Source: a virus. From it: DNA of 22,510 nucleotides. The notes under the pieces were generated by a model. It was given only the letters and a program-made list of their open reading frames with translations, searched no databases and had not been told where the DNA came from. The stretch is taken from the IMG/VR virus record IMGVR_UViG_3300045918_000358, positions 1 to 22,510 of that record, one strand, 5' to 3'. Below are positions 6,372-22,315 of the stretch, piece by piece; within the stretch, counting starts at the first letter, position 1; every line of letters starts with the position of its first letter. A program made the translations under genes and the position numbers.

Positions 6372-6958
6372 AACTACTCATTATGATTTTTAATTCAAAA
6401 AATACCAATACCTTAGATCAGTTAGTTAACACGTGCTCACAATATGTGATAGAATCGTGCGGTAATCCTTTACTTAAAAATTTGTCTAATAGCTATAATA
6501 TTATTGACAAGGTAAAAATTCGCCAAAGAAAAGGTATGGATGAGACAATGTCCGAAGCTTATTCAACTGCGTTTGAATTTAAGTCTTTATATAATAGAGC
6601 ATTATTTACCAATGGGTTAAAATCAATTCAACCTCCTACCAGTAATGACATAATTACATATTATGTATTTCCTGTAAACGGTTATGAGTATTTGTATAAC
6701 CCGGAAGTTATGAATTCATCACTCGAATATAAAACTATATTCGATTTATTGTTCCATGAGAATCATACAGGTGATAGTGTTTCAGTTATAACAGATTTGT
6801 TAAAATTTCAATATAAGCATACTGATTTAGCTGAAGGTATTCAATCTGGAACTGAAATTATTTTTTATAGTATTCCACAATTCTATGTAGTCACTGTTAA
6901 TTCATTCCCTGACTATACAGAATTGTATGATATTTTATTAGAGAGGTTAGACATATGA
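6356..6958 (+). CDS. Hypothetical protein (200 aa)
   Basis: The start is taken as ATG 6356 (GGGGA three to four bases upstream, inside the hairpin described separately); TTG 6341 is less likely, and ATG 6383 is possible if the hairpin blocks the first. The protein is mixed alpha/beta and has two cysteines. Segments include SQYVIESCGNPLLKNLSNSY, a basic patch VKIRQRKGMDE and a C-terminal NSFPDYTELYDILLERLD. No signature of a known enzyme or structural protein is visible. It overlaps the next gene as ATGA, so the three genes 6356-7423 form a coupled set. Confidence 0.7.
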   Translation: MSPYQQLLIMIFNSKNTNTLDQLVNTCSQYVIESCGNPLLKNLSNSYNIIDKVKIRQRKGMDETMSEAYSTAFEFKSLYNRALFTNGLKSIQPPTSNDIITYYVFPVNGYEYLYNPEVMNSSLEYKTIFDLLFHENHTGDSVSVITDLLKFQYKHTDLAEGIQSGTEIIFYSIPQFYVVTVNSFPDYTELYDILLERLDI

Positions 6959-7164
6959 TACCGTATACTACGAAGGACCACACATTTGGAACTGGTCAAA
7001 CAATCGAAGCTGTAATAAACTTATATAATATGCATTCGTTAGGTAAGGAGACTAGACAAGAGCTGATGTCTATATATAATGCATTAAATGGTGACAAACC
7101 TCCAACTTTAGGAAAGTCTGTTAAGGTGCCTGTAATTACAATTGAGTTTAATGACGATTTCTAA
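6955..7164 (+). CDS. Hypothetical protein (69 aa)
   Basis: Start ATG 6955 overlaps the preceding stop (ATGA) and has GAGAGG about eight bases upstream. The small soluble product has a helix (QTIEAVINLYNMHSLGKETR) and an acidic C-terminus (ITIEFNDDF). It overlaps the next reading frame by 14 bases. No family is recognised; the coupling to both neighbours suggests a shared role. Confidence 0.7.
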   Translation: MIPYTTKDHTFGTGQTIEAVINLYNMHSLGKETRQELMSIYNALNGDKPPTLGKSVKVPVITIEFNDDF

Positions 7165-7423
7165 ATTTATAGAATATTTGGGATCTTCCTTAATATTTTT
7201 AGGCGCTATTATAAATTCAATATCAATTGACCCATCGTTCACACTATGGGCGTTTGTTTCGTTTATAATAGGACATCTAATATGGTCGTATATTTCAATA
7301 GTAGAGAAACGTTGGTCATTATTTCTTATAAACGGTGGTTTTATACCACTAGACGCTTATGCAATAATGCTTAGAATATACCCAGATTTAACAATAGGGA
7401 AACTGATAAATATTTTATTATAA
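7151..7423 (+). CDS. Multi-helix membrane protein (90 aa)
   Basis: The start is ATG 7151; the frame is also open from TTG 7142, but ATG is preferred. Three hydrophobic helices are visible near residues 7-24, 31-50 and 57-78. The order helix, GHLIWSYISIVEKRWSLFLI, then a final helix recalls small PQ-loop or SemiSWEET-like three-helix proteins, but the match is only in shape. It would sit in the host inner membrane. It overlaps the upstream gene by 14 bases and lacks a clear ribosome site, so coupling is probable. Function unknown. Confidence 0.65.
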   Translation: MTISKFIEYLGSSLIFLGAIINSISIDPSFTLWAFVSFIIGHLIWSYISIVEKRWSLFLINGGFIPLDAYAIMLRIYPDLTIGKLINILL

Positions 7424-8421: not shown

Positions 8422-9744
8422 ATGAGTTTTGATGTAAAGAAACAACAATTATTAGTAGAGTATTTAATATCAGATCCGGATACCTTTGCGTTATGTTCAG
8501 CTATTGTAAAACCTGAGTATTTTGATCCTGAGTTACGAAATTCTGTTAAGTTTATAACTCAATATTATGAAAATTATAATACTACACCATCACCTATTCA
8601 AATCGAAGCTGAAACTGATGTTAAGTATCGATTAAAAGAAGTTAAGAAAGATGAAATTCAATACTGTGCAGATGAGGTTGAAAAGTTCTGTAGACAACAA
8701 GCTTTATGGAAAGCTATATTAGATGCTCCAGAATTAATGAAAGAAAACCGGGGTCATGATATTGAACTTGCGGTTAAGAATGCATTATTAGTCGGATTGC
8801 ATCGTGATATGGGTATTCGATATTATGATACTGTTCAAGAACGGTTACAACGACTACTAATTGAACCACCAGTTGAGAGTACTGGGTGGTCTGAATTTGA
8901 TAAATTACTATATGGTGGGTTAGGTCGTAAAGAATTATTATTAGTTGCGGCTAACTCAGGTGGTGGTAAATCTATAACATTAAACAATTTAGCTTTGAAT
9001 TTTACAGAAACAGGCCGAAATGTTTTATATATTACTTTAGAATTATCTCAGGACATGGTATCACAACGATTTGATGCTATGTACAGTGGGTATAACAGAA
9101 GTAACTGGATGTATCATACAGATGAAATTATTCATCGTGTGACGCAGGCTGGTAAGGACTGTGGTATCCTAGATTTAGTGTATATGTCTCCAGGCACTAA
9201 ACCTAGTCAAATGAAGGCGTTTATAAAAGAATATTATTTACGATATGGTATTATGCCAGATTTATTAATTGCTGATTATCTTGGTAAAATGGAACCGAAT
9301 CATAGAATATTGGATAATGTAAACGAGAGAGACAAAGCAATATCATCTCAATTTAGAGAATTAGGTGTTGAGTTTAATTGTTGTACAGCATCAGCAACGC
9401 AGTTAAACAGAACAGCAGTTAAAACTGAGGTACACGATCATTCAATGGTAGCTGGTGGTTATAGTCAAATTCAAGAGTGTGATGTATTTGTTACAATTAA
9501 CATGACTGAAATTGATAAAGCTAAAGGTGAGATTGAATATCAATTCTTAAAAACTCGTAGTAGTGATGGTGTTGGTAATATAATAAAGTTGAAGTGGGAC
9601 CCTAAATTTTTACGAATTTCTGATCACCCTTCACAAAAAACGAGTATAAATACTCAAGCTCGTACAATACCTACTGATACTGTTGGAATACCAGCCGTAT
9701 CAGAAAGTAAGTCAAAATTACTTTCTTTATTATCAGAAGATTAA
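8422..9744 (+). CDS. Replicative DNA helicase, DnaB/T4 gp41 type
   Basis: The 440-residue protein has the superfamily 4 RecA-like core: GWSEFDKLLYGGLGRKELLL, Walker A A177-NSGGGKS184, ITLELSQDM (motif H1a region), Walker B LLIADYL with D285, and a C-terminal part with TASATQLNR (motif H3) and FLKTRSSDG (motif H4). The N-terminal 130 residues form the helical primase-interaction region. It would unwind the lagging-strand template as a hexameric ring with the phage primase and polymerase. The length matches gp41 (about 475). Start ATG 8422 has AGAGGA upstream. The gene sits far from the polymerase in this window, in a run of unknown and structural-like genes. Confidence 0.93.
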   Translation: MSFDVKKQQLLVEYLISDPDTFALCSAIVKPEYFDPELRNSVKFITQYYENYNTTPSPIQIEAETDVKYRLKEVKKDEIQYCADEVEKFCRQQALWKAILDAPELMKENRGHDIELAVKNALLVGLHRDMGIRYYDTVQERLQRLLIEPPVESTGWSEFDKLLYGGLGRKELLLVAANSGGGKSITLNNLALNFTETGRNVLYITLELSQDMVSQRFDAMYSGYNRSNWMYHTDEIIHRVTQAGKDCGILDLVYMSPGTKPSQMKAFIKEYYLRYGIMPDLLIADYLGKMEPNHRILDNVNERDKAISSQFRELGVEFNCCTASATQLNRTAVKTEVHDHSMVAGGYSQIQECDVFVTINMTEIDKAKGEIEYQFLKTRSSDGVGNIIKLKWDPKFLRISDHPSQKTSINTQARTIPTDTVGIPAVSESKSKLLSLLSED

Positions 9745-9778
9745 TAAAATATAATTACAATAACCCTTAGGAGAAAAT

Positions 9779-10051
9779 ATGAAACAAGTAGAAGCTATCG
9801 TTACAATCAATGTTGGTGAAGTTGCCCATAATGTTGCTGATTTACCAGCTAACGTTCAAGAATTGGTTGAACTTTACAATGACTGGAGACAAGAAGAGTA
9901 TGTTGCACGTGTTGAATTAGTAAAAGTAAGTGCTGCATTGGAAGAAATGGGTCGTCGTATCGTTGCGGCTATTCAAGCAAATGATAAAGCTGTTGCTGAC
10001 GCTGCTGCTGTATCTGAAACACCTGCTGAAGAAACACCTGCTGCAGAATAA
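9779..10051 (+). CDS. Hypothetical Ala/Glu-rich protein (90 aa)
   Basis: Start ATG 9779 has a strong TAGGAG site. Residues 1-25 form strands (VEAIVTINVGEVAHNV), residues 26-75 a long helix, and the tail is a low-complexity AAAVSETPAEETPAAE stretch. Codon use is richer in GCT/GTT than most neighbours, as in abundant proteins. The acidic flexible tail resembles small phage capsid-associated or DNA-mimic proteins, but no family is recognised. Confidence 0.75.
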   Translation: MKQVEAIVTINVGEVAHNVADLPANVQELVELYNDWRQEEYVARVELVKVSAALEEMGRRIVAAIQANDKAVADAAAVSETPAEETPAAE

Positions 10052-14442: not shown

Positions 14443-15057
14443 ATGGCAGCGAGCAAACCCCCATTTTTTGTGGTTGAAGAGTTTTTGTCTCCAAAACAGT
14501 GTGAATATATAGTTGACATGTTAGGGTGTATATCACCAGACCTCAACAATAAGAACAACCCTGTAAAAATGGTTAAACTAGACAAAGATCTAGAACAAAT
14601 TGTATTTGAGAGACTACAATCGATCGTACCAGATATTGAATCATATTATGATTTCAAATATAAAGGTACTGAACGAATGGCATTTGAATGGTTCCCTGAA
14701 GGATTCAAGGACCCAGAATGTGTTTGTGAAAATAGCTCTTACTTGAGAAAGAAATGGGTCAGAACTCGTAGCAGAGACTTAACAGGAGTATTGTTCCTGT
14801 CTAATTTCCGCGACTCTGCACCGTTTGATTCTGAATATGAAGTATATGGAGGAAAGTTAGAATTCCCTCAGCATAACTTTAGTTTTCATCCAAGTAGAGG
14901 TCAATTAATAATTTACCCAAGTGGTCCGCATTTTATAAATGCGAACTCAGAAGTTTTAATCGGTGATATGCATCAAATAAGATTCCATATTACCGGTGCA
15001 ATGCCATATTTGTACAATCCTGAAAAGTTTCCCGGTTCATGGAAAACTTGGTTTTAA
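14443..15057 (+). CDS. 2OG-Fe(II) oxygenase-like protein, possibly degenerate
   Basis: The 204-residue product follows the prolyl-4-hydroxylase-like phage oxygenase pattern: FFVVEEFLSPKQCEYI at the N-terminus, RDLTGVLFLSNF (111-122), YGGKLEFPQ (135-143), RGQLIIYPSGPHF with H163 (distal iron ligand) and HQIRFHITG with R180 (2-oxoglutarate ligand). The proximal HxD pair expected some residues before RDLTG is not found; the stretch reads ENSSYLRKKWVRTRSRD. It may be catalytically altered or inactive, or use other ligands. The start ATG 14443 follows the previous stop by four bases without a ribosome site. Its last 21 bases overlap the convergent HNH gene. Confidence 0.78.
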   Translation: MAASKPPFFVVEEFLSPKQCEYIVDMLGCISPDLNNKNNPVKMVKLDKDLEQIVFERLQSIVPDIESYYDFKYKGTERMAFEWFPEGFKDPECVCENSSYLRKKWVRTRSRDLTGVLFLSNFRDSAPFDSEYEVYGGKLEFPQHNFSFHPSRGQLIIYPSGPHFINANSEVLIGDMHQIRFHITGAMPYLYNPEKFPGSWKTWF

Positions 15058-15771
15058 TTTACAGTTATCAAAGTGCCAACGCTTTAAAACGTTTCCACCG
15101 ATAATATTACAATATGGACATTGTAGTTTAGGTCTAATATTATGAGAATTTTTCATTTTTTGTATAGATTCTAATGAATGTGATTTACCGTAAAAATGGT
15201 TTCCAGTACCTGAGTTTAATTTAGATAAGTTTTGTTTGAATTCAACAGTTCTAACTTTGTTACAGTTTTTACCTTTCATTGATTTTGACATTTTTTGTTT
15301 AGTTTCTTTTGTATGTGGTATTCCTGTTCTGGTACCAGGTTTCCCATAACTAGAACTATTAACACCGGTATATTTACCTGTGAGGGTTTGACTTATTTTA
15401 GTACGGTGTTCAGCAGTTTTAGGTACCCCATACATATAATTATTAGGGCCAGAAACTGAAATAATAAATTTCGTACGGAGCCATTCATATTCTTTATTTG
15501 ACCTGGTGTTGCCCATTATATGAGCTGCGTATAATATTTTAGAATTTGTAGGAAATATTTTTACCAATAATTGGTGAGCTATATAATGTTCAGAGGGGGT
15601 TAATTTTACTAAATTATCTTTGGAATTACTACCACCCATACATTTAGGTATTATATGATGGCGTTCTGTTACAGAGGGGGGTGTACGGTAAATAGCTTTA
15701 ACTATTAATTTATTATAGTGTTGAAGCCATTTTGCTTGATTTTTTGTTAAATTTTGAATATTATTTAGCAT
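15037..15771 (-). CDS. Free-standing HNH homing endonuclease with NUMOD3 repeats
   Basis: Residues 37-70 hold the HNH motif (ERHHIIPKCMGGSNSKDNLV, then LTPSEHYIAHQLL), and residues 110-205 carry several NUMOD3-type DNA-binding repeats (GPNNYMYGVPKTAEHRTKIS, GIPHTKETKQKMSKSMKGKN, GTGNHFYGKSHSLESIQKM). The C-terminus has a C2HC finger (CPYC, then WHFDNC). Such enzymes cut a DNA site in phages lacking the gene and spread by repair. The gene is on the minus strand, has AGGAG and a late promoter just upstream, and its 3' end overlaps the 2OG gene by 21 bases. All domains look intact, so activity is likely. Confidence 0.93.
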   Translation of the reverse strand: MLNNIQNLTKNQAKWLQHYNKLIVKAIYRTPPSVTERHHIIPKCMGGSNSKDNLVKLTPSEHYIAHQLLVKIFPTNSKILYAAHIMGNTRSNKEYEWLRTKFIISVSGPNNYMYGVPKTAEHRTKISQTLTGKYTGVNSSSYGKPGTRTGIPHTKETKQKMSKSMKGKNCNKVRTVEFKQNLSKLNSGTGNHFYGKSHSLESIQKMKNSHNIRPKLQCPYCNIIGGNVLKRWHFDNCKLKPSFP

Positions 15772-17039: not shown

Positions 17040-18617
17040 ATGAGTTATATTAGTGCTATACGTGATAGGGACGAGGTTATCGTTTGGGAACGGATTGACG
17101 GTAAACGAGTAGTTACCAGATACCCTGCTGAATATTATTTCTATGTTCCAGACGCAAATGGTGAACATGAAAGTATATTTGGTGATAAAGTTCGTAAATT
17201 ATCTTTTGAAAATGGAAGTGATTTCCGAGATGCAAGAGCAAGATATGAAAGTGATAATATTCGTGTATTTGAAACTGATATTCCAACTGATGTTCGTGTT
17301 CTAGCTAAACACTACTATAACGTACCACCTCCTAAATTACATTATACCTTCTACGATATCGAGGTTGATTACGATCCTGAACTTGGATTCTCTTCTGTAG
17401 AAAATCCATACGCACCACTTAATAGTATTGCAATATACCACGAATGGTCTAAACGTATGATCATTGGTTGTATACCATCACCAAAATTTAAAGATATTAC
17501 TCTAACTGAACTGTTAACTGAAATGGATGAAGATGCTCCATTACCAGATAATGTTAAACTTGAGTTTAATATTTTTAAGACTGAACGTGAATTATTGTTC
17601 TGGATATTAGACGAGTTTGAAGACTCAGATGTTATTACTGGTTGGAACTCAGGACTGTTCGATACCCCATATCTTGCTGCTAGAATTAGACGAGTGTTAG
17701 GTAAAGCTTCTTGGAAACGGTTATGTTTTCCAGAAGGTAGAGATCCAGTTGAACGTGATGTAGAATTGTTTGGTAGGATTAATAAAACTATTGACTTGTC
17801 TGGTAGGATTAGTATCGACTATTTGGTACTGTTTAAGAACTATGAGATGGGTGATAGACCTACTTATAAGTTAGAATCTGTTGCTGATGACCTATTACCA
17901 GATTTACCTAAATTACATTACGAGGGATCATTACGAGACCTGTACTATAATGATTTTCCAAACTTCGTTCGATACAACTTACGAGATACTGAAATCTTGA
18001 AAGGTTTCGAAGATAAACTCGGATATCTAGAGCTAGCTAACGTTATGGTTCATTTATCATGTGGTCAATTCGATTATGTTACTGGAACATTAAAGCTTGC
18101 TGAATTAGCTATCAATAACTATTGTCATTATGAGTTAAACAAAGTAGTCAATAATAAACCAAATGTTAACCCTGATGATCCTAACGACCGTTCTATTGAA
18201 GGTGCTATTGTATTAGAGCCTAAAGTAGGTATGCATAAGTGGTTAGGAGCTATCGATATTAACTCGCTGTACCCTTCTTGTATTATGGCTATTAATATTA
18301 GCCCTGAAACTCAGATTGGACAATTTGACCAGACTGAACGAGCTGTTAAAGCAATACATGATGAAACAGAAGAAATGTTAACCTTACATTTATATGATAG
18401 TGATGTTTATAAGACACAACCTGCTTGGAAGTGGAAAGAACTATTTTTAAAGAATGGAATGGCAATAAGCGGATACGGAACAGTGTATCGTCAGGATGAA
18501 CAAGGTGTTATTCCAATGATATTAGATGGGTGGTTTACTACACGTAAAAAGTATCAAAAAATGAAGAAAGATGAGTATTCAGCTGCAGAAGCAATATTGG
18601 CAAAATATAAAAAATAA
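17040..18617 (+). CDS. 43A: DNA polymerase family B, N-terminal half (exonuclease and motif A; T4 gp43A-like)
   Basis: This 525-residue protein contains the proofreading exonuclease motifs D106-I-E108, GWNSGLFDTP with D208, and Y312-NLR-D316, then polymerase motif A, D406-I-N-SLYPS413 with NISPET. It continues into the first fingers helix (RKKYQKMKKDEYSAAEAILA) and stops at residue 525. Motifs B and C are missing here and are found in the 20331-21428 protein, so the two must assemble into one enzyme. Together they are 890 residues, close to T4 gp43 (898). The split lies in the fingers domain, like the gp43A/gp43B split described in some Aeromonas T4-like phages. The catalytic residues are intact. 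Confidence 0.95.
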   Translation: MSYISAIRDRDEVIVWERIDGKRVVTRYPAEYYFYVPDANGEHESIFGDKVRKLSFENGSDFRDARARYESDNIRVFETDIPTDVRVLAKHYYNVPPPKLHYTFYDIEVDYDPELGFSSVENPYAPLNSIAIYHEWSKRMIIGCIPSPKFKDITLTELLTEMDEDAPLPDNVKLEFNIFKTERELLFWILDEFEDSDVITGWNSGLFDTPYLAARIRRVLGKASWKRLCFPEGRDPVERDVELFGRINKTIDLSGRISIDYLVLFKNYEMGDRPTYKLESVADDLLPDLPKLHYEGSLRDLYYNDFPNFVRYNLRDTEILKGFEDKLGYLELANVMVHLSCGQFDYVTGTLKLAELAINNYCHYELNKVVNNKPNVNPDDPNDRSIEGAIVLEPKVGMHKWLGAIDINSLYPSCIMAINISPETQIGQFDQTERAVKAIHDETEEMLTLHLYDSDVYKTQPAWKWKELFLKNGMAISGYGTVYRQDEQGVIPMILDGWFTTRKKYQKMKKDEYSAAEAILAKYKK

Positions 18618-18618
18618 G

Positions 18619-18647
18619 TTGAACTTTTAACATTAATATGTTATACT
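18619..18647 (+). promoter_or_regulatory. Sigma70-like promoter after the polymerase half-gene
   Basis: TTGAAC (18619-18624), a 17-base spacer and TATACT (18642-18647) start two bases after the polymerase stop and face the small membrane-protein gene at 18679. The match and spacing are good, which suggests an independent early unit. Confidence 0.65.
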
Positions 18648-18678
18648 ATGTTTTTAGTAATTCAATAGGTAACATATT

Positions 18679-18855
18679 ATGTTAATGACGGTTTTTTTAA
18701 TTGTAAGTATTGTAATGTGGGCAACATTATTGTGTATGCTGTCCAGTAATTCAATTCGTTTAATTATGTGGAAGGTTATGTCGTTCCTGATGAGTGCAGC
18801 TGCGGTTGTATTATTACTGGAACGCTTCGGCTACCTGGCTAAACATTTTAGTTAA
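18679..18855 (+). CDS. Small two-helix membrane protein (58 aa)
   Basis: Start ATG 18679 has AGGT eight bases upstream; ATG 18685 is an alternative. Residues 3-21 (MTVFLIVSIVMWATLLCML) and 32-49 (KVMSFLMSAAAVVLLLER region) are transmembrane helices joined by a polar turn (SSNSIRL). The second half uses CTG, CGC, GGC, TTC and TAC codons far more than the neighbouring genes, which suggests a recent origin from a GC-richer genome. Its stop overlaps the stop region of the convergent GNAT gene. It could be a superinfection-exclusion or lysis-inhibition protein, but this is only a guess from size and topology. Confidence 0.65.
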   Translation: MLMTVFLIVSIVMWATLLCMLSSNSIRLIMWKVMSFLMSAAAVVLLLERFGYLAKHFS

Positions 18856-19466
18856 TAATAATTGCCAATATTTTCAGGATGGGTATATAACATATGCCCA
18901 TCTAATATTCCATCACCTATTGCCAGTCTTTCTGTACCACGTAACCCAACATTAATAATTTGTTCAGCAATTAATAGATATCTATCAGGGTGACTGTTAT
19001 AAATGTCGGCATCTTGTACAGTATTTCTAGGTAATAACGTATCTGTTTGATTATCATGAACTTGTACATTTAATACTTTACTGATACTATTCCATAATTT
19101 TCTACCATACTCAGTTTGTTTATCATCACTAATTAATTTCATATTATATTTTTTTACTAATGAGACATATAGTGCAGTAGCATAACCCTGCATACGATAT
19201 TGTTTAGGTGTATATACATCTAATATTGAAAAGTATGTATTATCATTCCAATTTCTGTTATATCCAATAACAGCAGATAATAATTGATTATCTTTACTAT
19301 ACAATCCGAATAATATAACATGTGGAGTTTTCGGTGATAATGCTTTAATTATTTTTGTTCCACCTTCACTATATCCGAACTGTTCACCATTTTGGATATC
19401 AAAATCAGAAATATTAAATCGTTTATAGTCGTGATTAGGTACCATGATTATTTCACACAATTTCAT
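18852..19466 (-). CDS. GNAT-family acetyltransferase (204 aa)
   Basis: The product has a GNAT core: a strand region (VILFGLYSKDNQLLSAVIGY), then VYTPKQYRMQGYATALYVSL with the acetyl-CoA-binding Q/R-x-x-G-x-A loop (YRMQGYA), and the following strand and helix (MKLISDDKQTEYGRKLWNSI). The C-terminal 70 residues are an added region (DRYLLIAEQIINVGLRGTER). The target is unknown. Start ATG 19466 overlaps the nucleotidyltransferase stop (ATGA), so both are made from one transcript. The N-terminus MKLCEII resembles those of the neighbour and the 13213 protein. It lies inside the gap between the polymerase halves, on the opposite strand. Confidence 0.78.
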   Translation of the reverse strand: MKLCEIIMVPNHDYKRFNISDFDIQNGEQFGYSEGGTKIIKALSPKTPHVILFGLYSKDNQLLSAVIGYNRNWNDNTYFSILDVYTPKQYRMQGYATALYVSLVKKYNMKLISDDKQTEYGRKLWNSISKVLNVQVHDNQTDTLLPRNTVQDADIYNSHPDRYLLIAEQIINVGLRGTERLAIGDGILDGHMLYTHPENIGNYY

Positions 19467-20185
19467 ATAGACAAATCATCATCTTCTAATTTAGATTTAT
19501 AGTTTGACAACCTTTCAAGATACCCATTATTACGTAGTGTCTTAAAAGCTAAATTTTCTACCGACCACTCACCTGCAGTTTGTAAACCAGATTTACGCAT
19601 CGTTTTAATTTTATCTTTTAATTTTTGGATGTTGTGTAGATCTGTTTCTTTGTTATCAATCATACTATCAATTTGATTCATTATATCAGCTGCTTTACCT
19701 TTAACTGACATCGAATTATAAGATGGTTTTTCTTTTTTAGGTTTACTTAACCATTTGTCATCTTGTAATGAATATTCCCCAGCACTGATATGTTGCTCTT
19801 TTGCATCTTGTGCGTATAGTTCAACAGGGAAACCATGTATAGTGATTTCATGAGAATCGTTCCAGATTGCCTTTTTGGCCTGGAAATACATTCCAATAAA
19901 ATCTTCACATTTGACATCGATCTTAGCTAAGTTAATAACTAAATGTAAATCTATGTCAGATTGTTTGGTATAATTGTATCCACAGTTACTACCAGTAATG
20001 ATAATATCTTCTACACTCTTAGGATTGATTTCAAGAAATTCTAAAAACTCTTTAGCAATACGTTTAAGAGCTTTTTTAACATCTTCACGTAATGAGTCAC
20101 CATCCCAAACTTTTGGATTAAGTTTGTTATTGTATCTGATATTAGTTTTAACTTCTTCTGGTTTTAAAATTTCGAATAATTTCAT
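19463..20185 (-). CDS. Nucleotidyltransferase-fold protein (240 aa)
   Basis: Residues 64-83 read TGSNCGYNYTKQSDIDLHLV, the polymerase-beta-type nucleotidyltransferase signature (GS, then DxD); FPVELYAQD provides the likely third acidic residue. Such enzymes transfer nucleotides to proteins, RNA or small molecules, and related proteins occur as MNT-type toxins or antitoxins and as phage accessory enzymes. The C-terminal half is a charged helical region (ADIMNQIDSMIDNKETDLHN). Start ATG 20185 has only a weak site; a late promoter lies at 20223-20230. It is coupled to the GNAT gene. Substrate and biological role are unknown. Confidence 0.82.
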   Translation of the reverse strand: MKLFEILKPEEVKTNIRYNNKLNPKVWDGDSLREDVKKALKRIAKEFLEFLEINPKSVEDIIITGSNCGYNYTKQSDIDLHLVINLAKIDVKCEDFIGMYFQAKKAIWNDSHEITIHGFPVELYAQDAKEQHISAGEYSLQDDKWLSKPKKEKPSYNSMSVKGKAADIMNQIDSMIDNKETDLHNIQKLKDKIKTMRKSGLQTAGEWSVENLAFKTLRNNGYLERLSNYKSKLEDDDLSI

Positions 20186-20186
20186 G

Positions 20187-20215
20187 TTGATCTCAAAGTT
20201 GTAGTATTATATAAT
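20187..20215 (+). promoter_or_regulatory. Sigma70-like promoter for the C-terminal polymerase gene
   Basis: TTGATC (20187-20192), a 17-base spacer and TATAAT (20210-20215) lie upstream of the second polymerase half. This allows it to be transcribed apart from the first half. It overlaps the start of the divergent nucleotidyltransferase gene and lies beside its late promoter. Confidence 0.65.
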
Positions 20216-20222
20216 AGTATAT

Positions 20223-20230
20223 TATTTATA
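20223..20230 (-). promoter_or_regulatory. T4-type late promoter for the nucleotidyltransferase-GNAT pair
   Basis: TATTTATA on the plus strand gives TATAAATA on the minus strand, 38 bases before the start at 20185. It places the inserted minus-strand pair under late control, opposite to the early-type polymerase promoters around it. Confidence 0.65.
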
Positions 20231-20245
20231 CTAAAACAATCTATA

Positions 20246-20341
20246 CCTAAAGGATTAACACAAAAAGAGTTTATTACTCGATCGAAATTAGTTCATGGGG
20301 ATACATATGATTATAATATGAGGGGAAATTATGCCAGTTAG
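20246..20341 (+). pseudogene. Remnant of a homing-endonuclease-type domain
   Basis: Read in the frame starting at 20246, this stretch gives PKGLTQKEFITRSKLV, then HGDTYDYNMRGNYAS and a TAG stop at 20339-20341. The EF(I)xxxxxxHGDxYDYxxxxY pattern is the start of the small domain found at the N-terminus or between modules of many phage homing endonucleases and VSR-like endonucleases. The frame has no usable start codon and breaks off before the following strand and zinc-binding part. It is out of frame with the polymerase gene that starts at 20331 and overlaps its first codons. It probably is the tail-less remains of an endonuclease gene that once lay between the polymerase halves. Confidence 0.6.
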
Positions 20342-21428
20342 AAAAGGTATAGAAATATCTGAAGAAGATGCAAAAATATATGATCAGCATATTATGATGT
20401 CTGAATATTATGATAAACTTCAATATGTATTTAAGATCAAATTAAATAGCCTCTACGGAGCTCTTAGTAATTGCTATTTTCGGTACTTTAACCTTAACAA
20501 TGGAGAGAGTACTACAGGTACTGGTCGTGCAATATTAAAACATCAATGTGCAGTTGTTAATGAAGCTTTAACAGGAGAATATGACTATATGGGTGAAGCT
20601 ATTATATATGGCGACACCGATTCCAGCTATTTCCTAACTTTTTCAACAGGTGCCGACGCCATTAAAGTTGCGGACGCTGTCGCAGATGTTGTTAATGCAT
20701 CATTCCAACCATTTATGAAAGAGTGGTTTTTATGTACACCAGGTTATGATAATCGTATTAAATCTGGCCGTGAGTTGGTAGCAGACGCGGGTATTTTTGT
20801 TGAAAAAAAGCGTTATATGTTACATGTTGTTGATGACGAAGGTAAAAAAGTAGATAAAGAAAAAATCATGGGATTAGATTTAAAGAAAACCATTATCCCA
20901 AAAGAAATCTCAAAATATTTATCATCATATATCAAGCGGTTGTTAATGGGTGAAGATTGGAAAGAAATTTCTAAAGACATCGTTAGATATAAAGAAGAAT
21001 TATTAACAACTGACAAGGTTTATACAATAGGGTTACCAAAAGGTATCGGTAAGATGCAAGAATACCTTGAGAAGTATAATATTGATCGTACTACTTTTCT
21101 TCCAGGTCATGTGAGCGCAGCGATTAACTGGAACCGTAACTTAAACGAACGTAACGATAAAGTTACAATGGCTATTAACGGTGGAATGAAGATTCGTACA
21201 TTCTATTTGAAGAAAGTTGAAGGACGTTTCAAGAGTATTGCCATACCAACTGATATCGATGTATTGCCAGAATGGTTTATTCAAGATTACGTACCGAACA
21301 TTGACCGTAAAGCTCAGATTAAAAGGTTGATTGATAATCCATTAGAGAATATAATTAAAGCATTAGGTTGGAAGAGTCCAACTAAAAAAACATTATTAAT
21401 GGATCAATTTTTAGATTTCGGTGATTAA
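20331..21428 (+). CDS. 43B: DNA polymerase family B, C-terminal half (motifs B and C; T4 gp43B-like)
   Basis: The 365-residue protein begins in the second fingers helix (EEDAKIYDQHIMMSEYYDKL) and contains motif B, K35-IKL-N39-SLYG, then motif C, YGDTDSS with D95 and D97, and a thumb region. It ends with KKTLLMDQFLDFGD, a sliding-clamp-binding tail like that of T4 gp43. It pairs with the 17040-18617 protein to make the full polymerase. Start ATG 20331 has a GAGGGG site. The first six residues (MPVRKG) have no clear counterpart in unsplit polymerases and may have been gained with the new start. A promoter lies at 20187-20215. Confidence 0.95.
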   Translation: MPVRKGIEISEEDAKIYDQHIMMSEYYDKLQYVFKIKLNSLYGALSNCYFRYFNLNNGESTTGTGRAILKHQCAVVNEALTGEYDYMGEAIIYGDTDSSYFLTFSTGADAIKVADAVADVVNASFQPFMKEWFLCTPGYDNRIKSGRELVADAGIFVEKKRYMLHVVDDEGKKVDKEKIMGLDLKKTIIPKEISKYLSSYIKRLLMGEDWKEISKDIVRYKEELLTTDKVYTIGLPKGIGKMQEYLEKYNIDRTTFLPGHVSAAINWNRNLNERNDKVTMAINGGMKIRTFYLKKVEGRFKSIAIPTDIDVLPEWFIQDYVPNIDRKAQIKRLIDNPLENIIKALGWKSPTKKTLLMDQFLDFGD

Positions 21429-21631: not shown

Positions 21632-22049
21632 TTTAATTCAAGGTACATTATCAAGTTTTTCAATTGAAGAGCATATTAAGTATTCCAATTTACCAGAGTT
21701 AGCTATTACTATTCTGGAGCAAATGGAAGAAGAATATGAGCAGCGTATTGCAGCTGCTCAAGAATGTGACAGTAACGATGAGGATGATCTTCAAGAACAA
21801 GTTGATGATTTAAAAACTCAAGTTGAAGAATTAGAAGGTGAGCTAAGCAAAAATAAGTACACTATTATGGAACTCCGAACTGCATTATCAGTCGCTAATA
21901 CAGATATGGAGCGATATAAGCGATTCGTTCGTGCAGTAAAGAAACGTATTAGAAATGGTAGCTTCTTTATCACTTACGAGATGCCGTTCGGGTTACATTC
22001 TCAAATACATACCGCATTAGTTGAAAACGATTTAGATTTTGACGTATAA
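21624..22049 (+). CDS. Coiled-coil protein (141 aa)
   Basis: Start ATG 21624 has a GGGTGGG site partly upstream and overlaps the previous gene. Residues 30-85 form a long acidic coiled coil (QVDDLKTQVEELEGELSKNK and neighbours), then a basic helix (ERYKRFVRAVKKRIRNG) and a short strand-rich end (SFFITYEMPFGLHSQIHTAL). It probably oligomerises. No catalytic motif is present. It overlaps the next start by one base (TAATG), so it is coupled to the feoA-like gene. Function unknown. Confidence 0.75.
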   Translation: MSNLIQGTLSSFSIEEHIKYSNLPELAITILEQMEEEYEQRIAAAQECDSNDEDDLQEQVDDLKTQVEELEGELSKNKYTIMELRTALSVANTDMERYKRFVRAVKKRIRNGSFFITYEMPFGLHSQIHTALVENDLDFDV

Positions 22050-22315
22050 TGACTATTCAAGACTTAGCAGTTGGTGATAACTGTAAAGTATTAGGATATT
22101 CAGAAGAAGGCAAGCCGTACCGTAAACGATTATTAGCAATGGGATTAACACCTGGAACAGAATTTAGTGTTACACGATTCGCTCCAATGGGAGATCCTGT
22201 ACAGTTATCATTACGAGGATATGCATTAACATTACGTAGAGCAGAAGCTAGTATTGTATTAGTAGAGAAGATTGAAAAAGACTGTCAACCAAAATGTAAG
22301 AAAGGATGTTGCTAA
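22049..22315 (+). CDS. feoA: FeoA-domain protein with Cys-rich tail
   Basis: The 88-residue product closely follows FeoA: IQDLAVGDNCKVLGYSEEGK, YRKRLLAMGLTPGTEFSVTR, FAPMGDPVQLSLRGYALTLR and a final strand. FeoA is the small SH3-like cytoplasmic partner of the FeoB ferrous iron transporter. The last ten residues (CQPKCKKGCC) add four cysteines not typical of FeoA; they might bind iron or zinc. There is no feoB in the window; the next gene is a small membrane protein. The domain is well preserved. In a phage it may tune host iron uptake or have been reused as a small SH3-like regulator; both are inference. Confidence 0.88.
   Translation: MTIQDLAVGDNCKVLGYSEEGKPYRKRLLAMGLTPGTEFSVTRFAPMGDPVQLSLRGYALTLRRAEASIVLVEKIEKDCQPKCKKGCC

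Follow-up and report, generated by a model that had tools for sequence, protein, structure and literature searches.

A polymerase gene in two parts

The window, by which we mean the whole stretch of DNA analysed (22.5 kb; IMG/VR virus record IMGVR_UViG_3300045918_000358), is a fragment of a giant phage whose DNA polymerase gene is in two parts. The first gene, gp43A (17040–18617, plus strand), encodes the N-terminal part of a family B DNA polymerase, comprising the exonuclease domain and the start of the polymerase domain (Pfam DNA_pol_B_exo1 and DNA_pol_B; phrog_262 and phrog_2062); it aligns with the single polymerases of phages XacN1 and RAS14 and has a C-terminus that reads AILAKYKK. The second, gp43B (20331–21428, plus strand), encodes the C-terminal part with motifs B and C and KKRY (Pfam DNA_pol_B; phrog_262 and phrog_1918) and is 42% identical to the XacN1 polymerase. 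Its N-terminus, MPVRKGIEISEEDAKIYD, is a motif common to other split relatives. The nearest named relatives, at 39–42% identity, are giant phages, namely Xanthomonas phage XacN1 and Stenotrophomonas phages CM1/RAS14, and the annotation of XacN1 and RAS14 gives the polymerase as a single gene. A joint alignment with uninterrupted polymerases spans gp43A and gp43B and is continuous across them; hence the polymerase is truly split, as a preliminary description of this DNA had proposed. Together the two products contain the full set of exonuclease and polymerase motifs of one polymerase, with no catalytic motif missing at the break in the joint alignment. The exonuclease domain and DINSLYPS, which we take to be motif A, lie in gp43A, and KIKLNSLYG, YGDTDS (presumably motifs B and C) and KKRY lie in gp43B. 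Alignment to solved T4-like polymerases places the break in the fingers, between chain residues ~496 and 556.

We propose that two genes encode the enzyme, with the break lying at the fingers-loop tip, and that gp43A and gp43B would associate after translation into a working polymerase, by analogy with the enzyme of Aeromonas phage 25. The polymerase region has no near relatives at the DNA level in the phages collection, and neither the single-sequence scan of viral sequences with gp43B nor the scan of genome contigs gave a confirmed match. The window is a single metagenome contig, in which a misassembly at the insert is possible, though five other contigs have the same break. Two neighbouring genes deserve mention. 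Approximately 1.3 kb upstream of gp43A lies a second homing endonuclease gene, apparently intact (15037–15771, minus strand; HNH and NUMOD3; phrog_655, E 1.2e-58), and slightly downstream of gp43B a FeoA-domain protein, unexpected for a phage, is encoded (22049–22315, plus strand; E 4.6e-19).

The stretch that separates the halves is 1.7 kb long (18618–20330) and, by an automatic test, absent in 161 of 168 relatives. It contains a hydrophobic ORF of 58 amino acids (18679–18855, plus strand), with only a weak holin-like PHROG match (E 0.043), and two intervening genes on the minus strand. One of these (18852–19466) is weakly GNAT acetyltransferase-like (Pfam E 0.005, below the cut-off) and has no match in the phages collection; the other (19463–20185) encodes a nucleotidyltransferase-like protein (phrog_36119; PHROGs E 1.8e-67) that shares 39–44% identity with cyanophage and other phage proteins. 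The earlier suggestion that a lost enzyme was replaced by cargo is consistent with these two genes at 18852–20185.

An endonuclease relic at the start of gp43B

Directly upstream of gp43B lies a relic of the opening 26 codons of a homing endonuclease gene with DUF723 (HGDxYDY) repeats (20243–20320, plus strand), with ATA at the start position. The preliminary description had assigned a decayed endonuclease domain to 20246–20341, a frame that reads PKGLTQKEFITRSKLVHGDTYDYNMRGNYAS up to its stop and is preceded by isoleucine (the ATA codon). Homology to endonucleases extends over 20243–20320, and the last seven codons of the frame are not clearly endonuclease. Homology, start position and profile score against a null together confirm the observation, with its borders slightly corrected.

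Three comparisons carry this assignment. A tblastn search with 33 residues against 50,697 phage records (2.3 Gb) matched 473 records, with E values down to 4e-4; each of the six matched places examined falls at the N-terminus, or in an early repeat, of endonucleases that combine multiple HGDxYDY repeats with a GIY-YIG/T5orf172-type domain at the C-terminus. Single full-length endonucleases align with the relic in the window at E ~1e-5 to 2e-5, and the best of these alignments begin within four residues of endonuclease residue 1. Intact relatives of the relic are the N-terminal repeats of T5orf172/GIY-YIG or EDxHD-like endonucleases, and what it carries is the N-terminal LTxxEFIxxAxxVHGDxYDY sequence of the DUF723-repeat enzymes. 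Finally, a profile made solely from repeats of the polymerase relatives, picked independently of similarity to the relic, scores 23.8 bits (E 1.7e-6), whereas 60 Markov-resampled windows gave 12.2 bits at most, and so the kinship with HGDxYDY repeats surmised from the letters is borne out. The match covers positions 3–24 of the 69 in the profile, and clear homology amounts to 78 nt. Because only this N-terminal part of the repeat remains, no model of Pfam, PHROGs or NCBIfam reports the 31–33 residues alone as an endonuclease domain; the search of profile libraries proposed as a check thus came out negative through shortness, not lack of kinship.

The relic has lost both its start and its catalytic part, as had been read from the sequence. 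Intact endonucleases have a methionine 16–18 residues before HG, and in the window the codon 17 before HG is ATA (20243–20245); the frame is open upstream to at least 20186, the extent translated, and over that distance holds no in-frame ATG, GTG or TTG able to start the relic motif. Past 20320 the rest of the repeat, with its CxxHG and CPxC zinc ligands, is absent, and the 1.7-kb insert gave no further significant match to full-length endonucleases that would represent a C-terminal nuclease domain (T5orf172 GIY-YIG or EDxHD-like). Since the insert holds no nuclease domain, the element is a relic and not a member of the DUF723 endonuclease family. The frame is closed by a TAG (20339–20341) within gp43B, in the start region of the polymerase half where the preliminary description had put it, and the ribosome site it had postulated is found directly at the relic's edge. 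There, where homology ends, a Shine-Dalgarno-like GAGGGG (20320–20325, plus strand) stands 5 nt before the ATG, and from this site translation of gp43B would start at 20331.

An intact DUF723/HGDxYDY endonuclease gene would formerly have lain between gp43A and gp43B in the same direction, and the remainder of it was probably lost by a deletion ending at the gp43B ribosome-binding site. Promoter-like sites around the relic are no commoner than in shuffled sequences. A 9-bp inverted repeat flanking the relic (20240–20248 and 20346–20354; RNA fold z −2.2) was rejected as a feature, being present also in 20% of null stretches.

As a kind, the relic is ordinary: known cases of split phage replication genes have homing endonucleases, or what remains of them, alongside, and T5orf172 endonucleases bearing DUF723-like domains cluster close to essential genes (PMC10448857). 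Like the DUF723/CapR/T5orf172 homing endonucleases of phages (PMC10448857), it has the N-terminal HGDxYDY repeat sequence; unlike them, it is only 26 codons long and is devoid of zinc-finger cysteines, nuclease domain and start codon.

One break site with varied occupants

Among 168 loci holding both polymerase halves, which were surveyed with an automatic test for interruption across the fingers, 161 are uninterrupted there. The seven flagged loci include two contig ends (L071 and L124), one distant and ambiguous case (L041) and four that are truly split (L151, L154, L160 and L178); a fifth split contig, L189, came from the DNA pattern of the loop. Four lineages other than that of the window (L151/L154, L160, L178 and L189) are therefore split at the same loop position. 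The flanks are conserved in all split forms, gp43A ending in ILxKYK(xx) before its stop and gp43B starting with MxxRxxI..S(D/E)EDAxxYD, with one extra residue before R in L151.

What lies at the break differs from lineage to lineage. Stop and start overlap (TAATG) in L178, which has no insert, and in L189 a 12-nt linker that carries a clean ribosome site joins the halves. L151 and L154 have a spacer of ~190 nt with a small ORF, identical in sequence in two samples. In L160 (IMGVR_UViG_3300045921_000730) 1.7 kb separate the halves and include an intact minus-strand endonuclease (phrog_3339, E 1.4e-100). L160 shares with the window the break point and the gp43B N-terminus; unlike the window, its endonuclease is intact, of another family and on the opposite strand, and gp43B contains a group I intron. 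The proposed look for relatives with an intact endonuclease between gp43A and gp43B turned up this one locus, with an enzyme of a different family, and no relative with a DUF723 endonuclease itself in that position was found. Endonucleases of the DUF723 type do occur nearby in other loci, 56–62 nt upstream of the polymerase in L139, L142 and L147, and in L164 within the polymerase itself, where an intein-like insert at motif C contains the endonuclease.

A scan of all viral contigs for the loop motif found only these polymerases, all of them split except that of L022, which is fused and has a long loop of the same kind. The split lineages do not group as a single clade (AU p 2.8e-4 with four rows and 9.99e-9 with five), a result to be read with caution given the long branches, the quick tree search and the labelling of loci as split ahead of tree building. 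The fingers loop of L132, 92 residues long and uninterrupted, has ends that resemble the split forms and could be a rejoined break.

The closest precedent is gp43A/43B of Aeromonas phages 25 and 44RR (PMC2988022; NC_008208). These too are family B phage polymerases, and the break falls in the same region of the fingers; it is occupied by a homing endonuclease in phage 25 and by an untranslated spacer in 44RR. The phage 25 proteins are reported to co-purify and to be active, and whether its seg endonuclease invaded an already split gene was left as an open question (PMC2988022). Unlike these polymerases, that of the window belongs to a different branch, whose nearest named members are XacN1 and RAS14 (~40% identity), and its break holds two minus-strand genes; the phage 25 endonuclease is of the GIY-YIG type, whereas the relic is of the DUF723 type. 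The phages described here are thus a second group, beside the Aeromonas T4-like phages, with a replicative polymerase broken in the fingers. A fused long loop, a break without insert, a spacer, an intact endonuclease, and a relic with other genes all occur at one site, and these states allow a direct comparison of whether homing endonucleases split genes or invade existing splits. It is this series across several non-sister lineages that seems to us the part worth following.

Origin of the break and other polymerase interruptions

We consider it highly probable that the window preserves the dead 5' end, ~26 codons, of a DUF723/HGDxYDY endonuclease at a two-gene polymerase broken at a fingers-loop site that is reused and variously occupied. 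Since other lineages have this break without insert, with a spacer or with an endonuclease of another family, the loop is a reused break site in these phages; the site may be empty or may be taken up by a spacer, by homing endonucleases or by different genes. The endonuclease of the window may precede or follow the break. The DUF723-type enzyme was one occupant of the site and need not have made the cut.

The preliminary description went further and proposed that the polymerase was split when this particular endonuclease inserted into it, after which the enzyme was lost and cargo moved in. The relic does sit directly at the break, an endonuclease, if of another family, occupies the same break in L160, and in T4-like phages insertion of mobE and mobA splits host genes (PMC2988022). 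As in the window, the endonucleases of phage Aeh1 nrdA (mobE) and T4 gene 60 (mobA) are tied to a split essential gene whose parts, in those systems, reassemble; unlike in the window, the genes are others and the endonuclease is present as a gene, not only as a relic (PMC2988022). The splits without endonuclease in L178 and L189, the short spacer of L151/L154 and the other enzyme family in L160 do not support this sequence of events as stated, and the long-loop motif is nearly confined to split polymerases. We regard it as possible but doubtful.

Somewhat less likely still is co-conversion, in which an endonuclease that homes at the loop copies the break, together with flanking sequence, into polymerases that were unsplit, so that the split spreads sideways. 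The split lineages share the loop motif yet are not one clade (the five-row AU result), and L160 is placed among short-loop polymerases. Between the window and L160, 38 of 45 nucleotides are identical over the first 15 aligned gp43B codons, compared with 58% identity in the rest, and all nine comparable codons are the same (p 8e-4). Against this, identity falls to background within ~15 codons, the long branches make the tree uncertain, and the pattern may also reflect repeated loss from a split ancestor. Because the excess of DNA identity is clear in only one of six pairs, we keep co-conversion as a rival only. A mobile break, that is, a two-gene polymerase with a special fingers-loop sequence that moves from one phage lineage to another through homing at the loop, is a similarly speculative prospect; if true, an essential gene would have been split repeatedly at one position, and the split would outlive the endonuclease that carried it.

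That the relic is a chance resemblance in an AT-rich leader is very improbable: it spans only 26 codons and matches no curated profile, but its profile score lies far above the null maximum and its position corresponds exactly to the N-terminus of intact copies. Least likely of all is a split intein or spliced intron that joins gp43A and gp43B and includes the relic; the polymerases of relatives do contain inserts that resemble inteins, and also a group I intron, but polymerase sequence runs right to the C-terminus of gp43A and from the N-terminus of gp43B, with no intein blocks, and the window has no match to RF00028, while L160 and phage 25 match (Rfam).

Other interruptions were seen along the polymerases of the relatives. 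A non-coding insert of ~1.1 kb lies near polymerase residue 300 in L020 (4875–6000) and has no Rfam match at the gathering score. Group I introns (RF00028) occupy the motif B site of gp43B in L160 (8109–8330) and in Aeromonas phage 25 (L186, 160–488), both of which are split in the fingers. In-frame, intein-like inserts ending in HN, recognised by eye, are located at two fixed sites, exonuclease motif II in L016 (5987–7080), L025 and L033, and motif C in L024, L027, L029, L034 and L164. The L189 polymerase is interrupted at further places (6669–7181 and 9318–9974): close to residue 111 by an ORF that looks HNH-like by eye, at the motif B site, where no Rfam intron match was obtained, by an endonuclease of the LAGLIDADG_2 type (E 4.6e-33), and at motif C by a probable intein. 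An HNH-endonuclease-like ORF (by eye) also breaks the polymerase near residue 111 in L029 (4470–5706) and is missing in its close relative L025.
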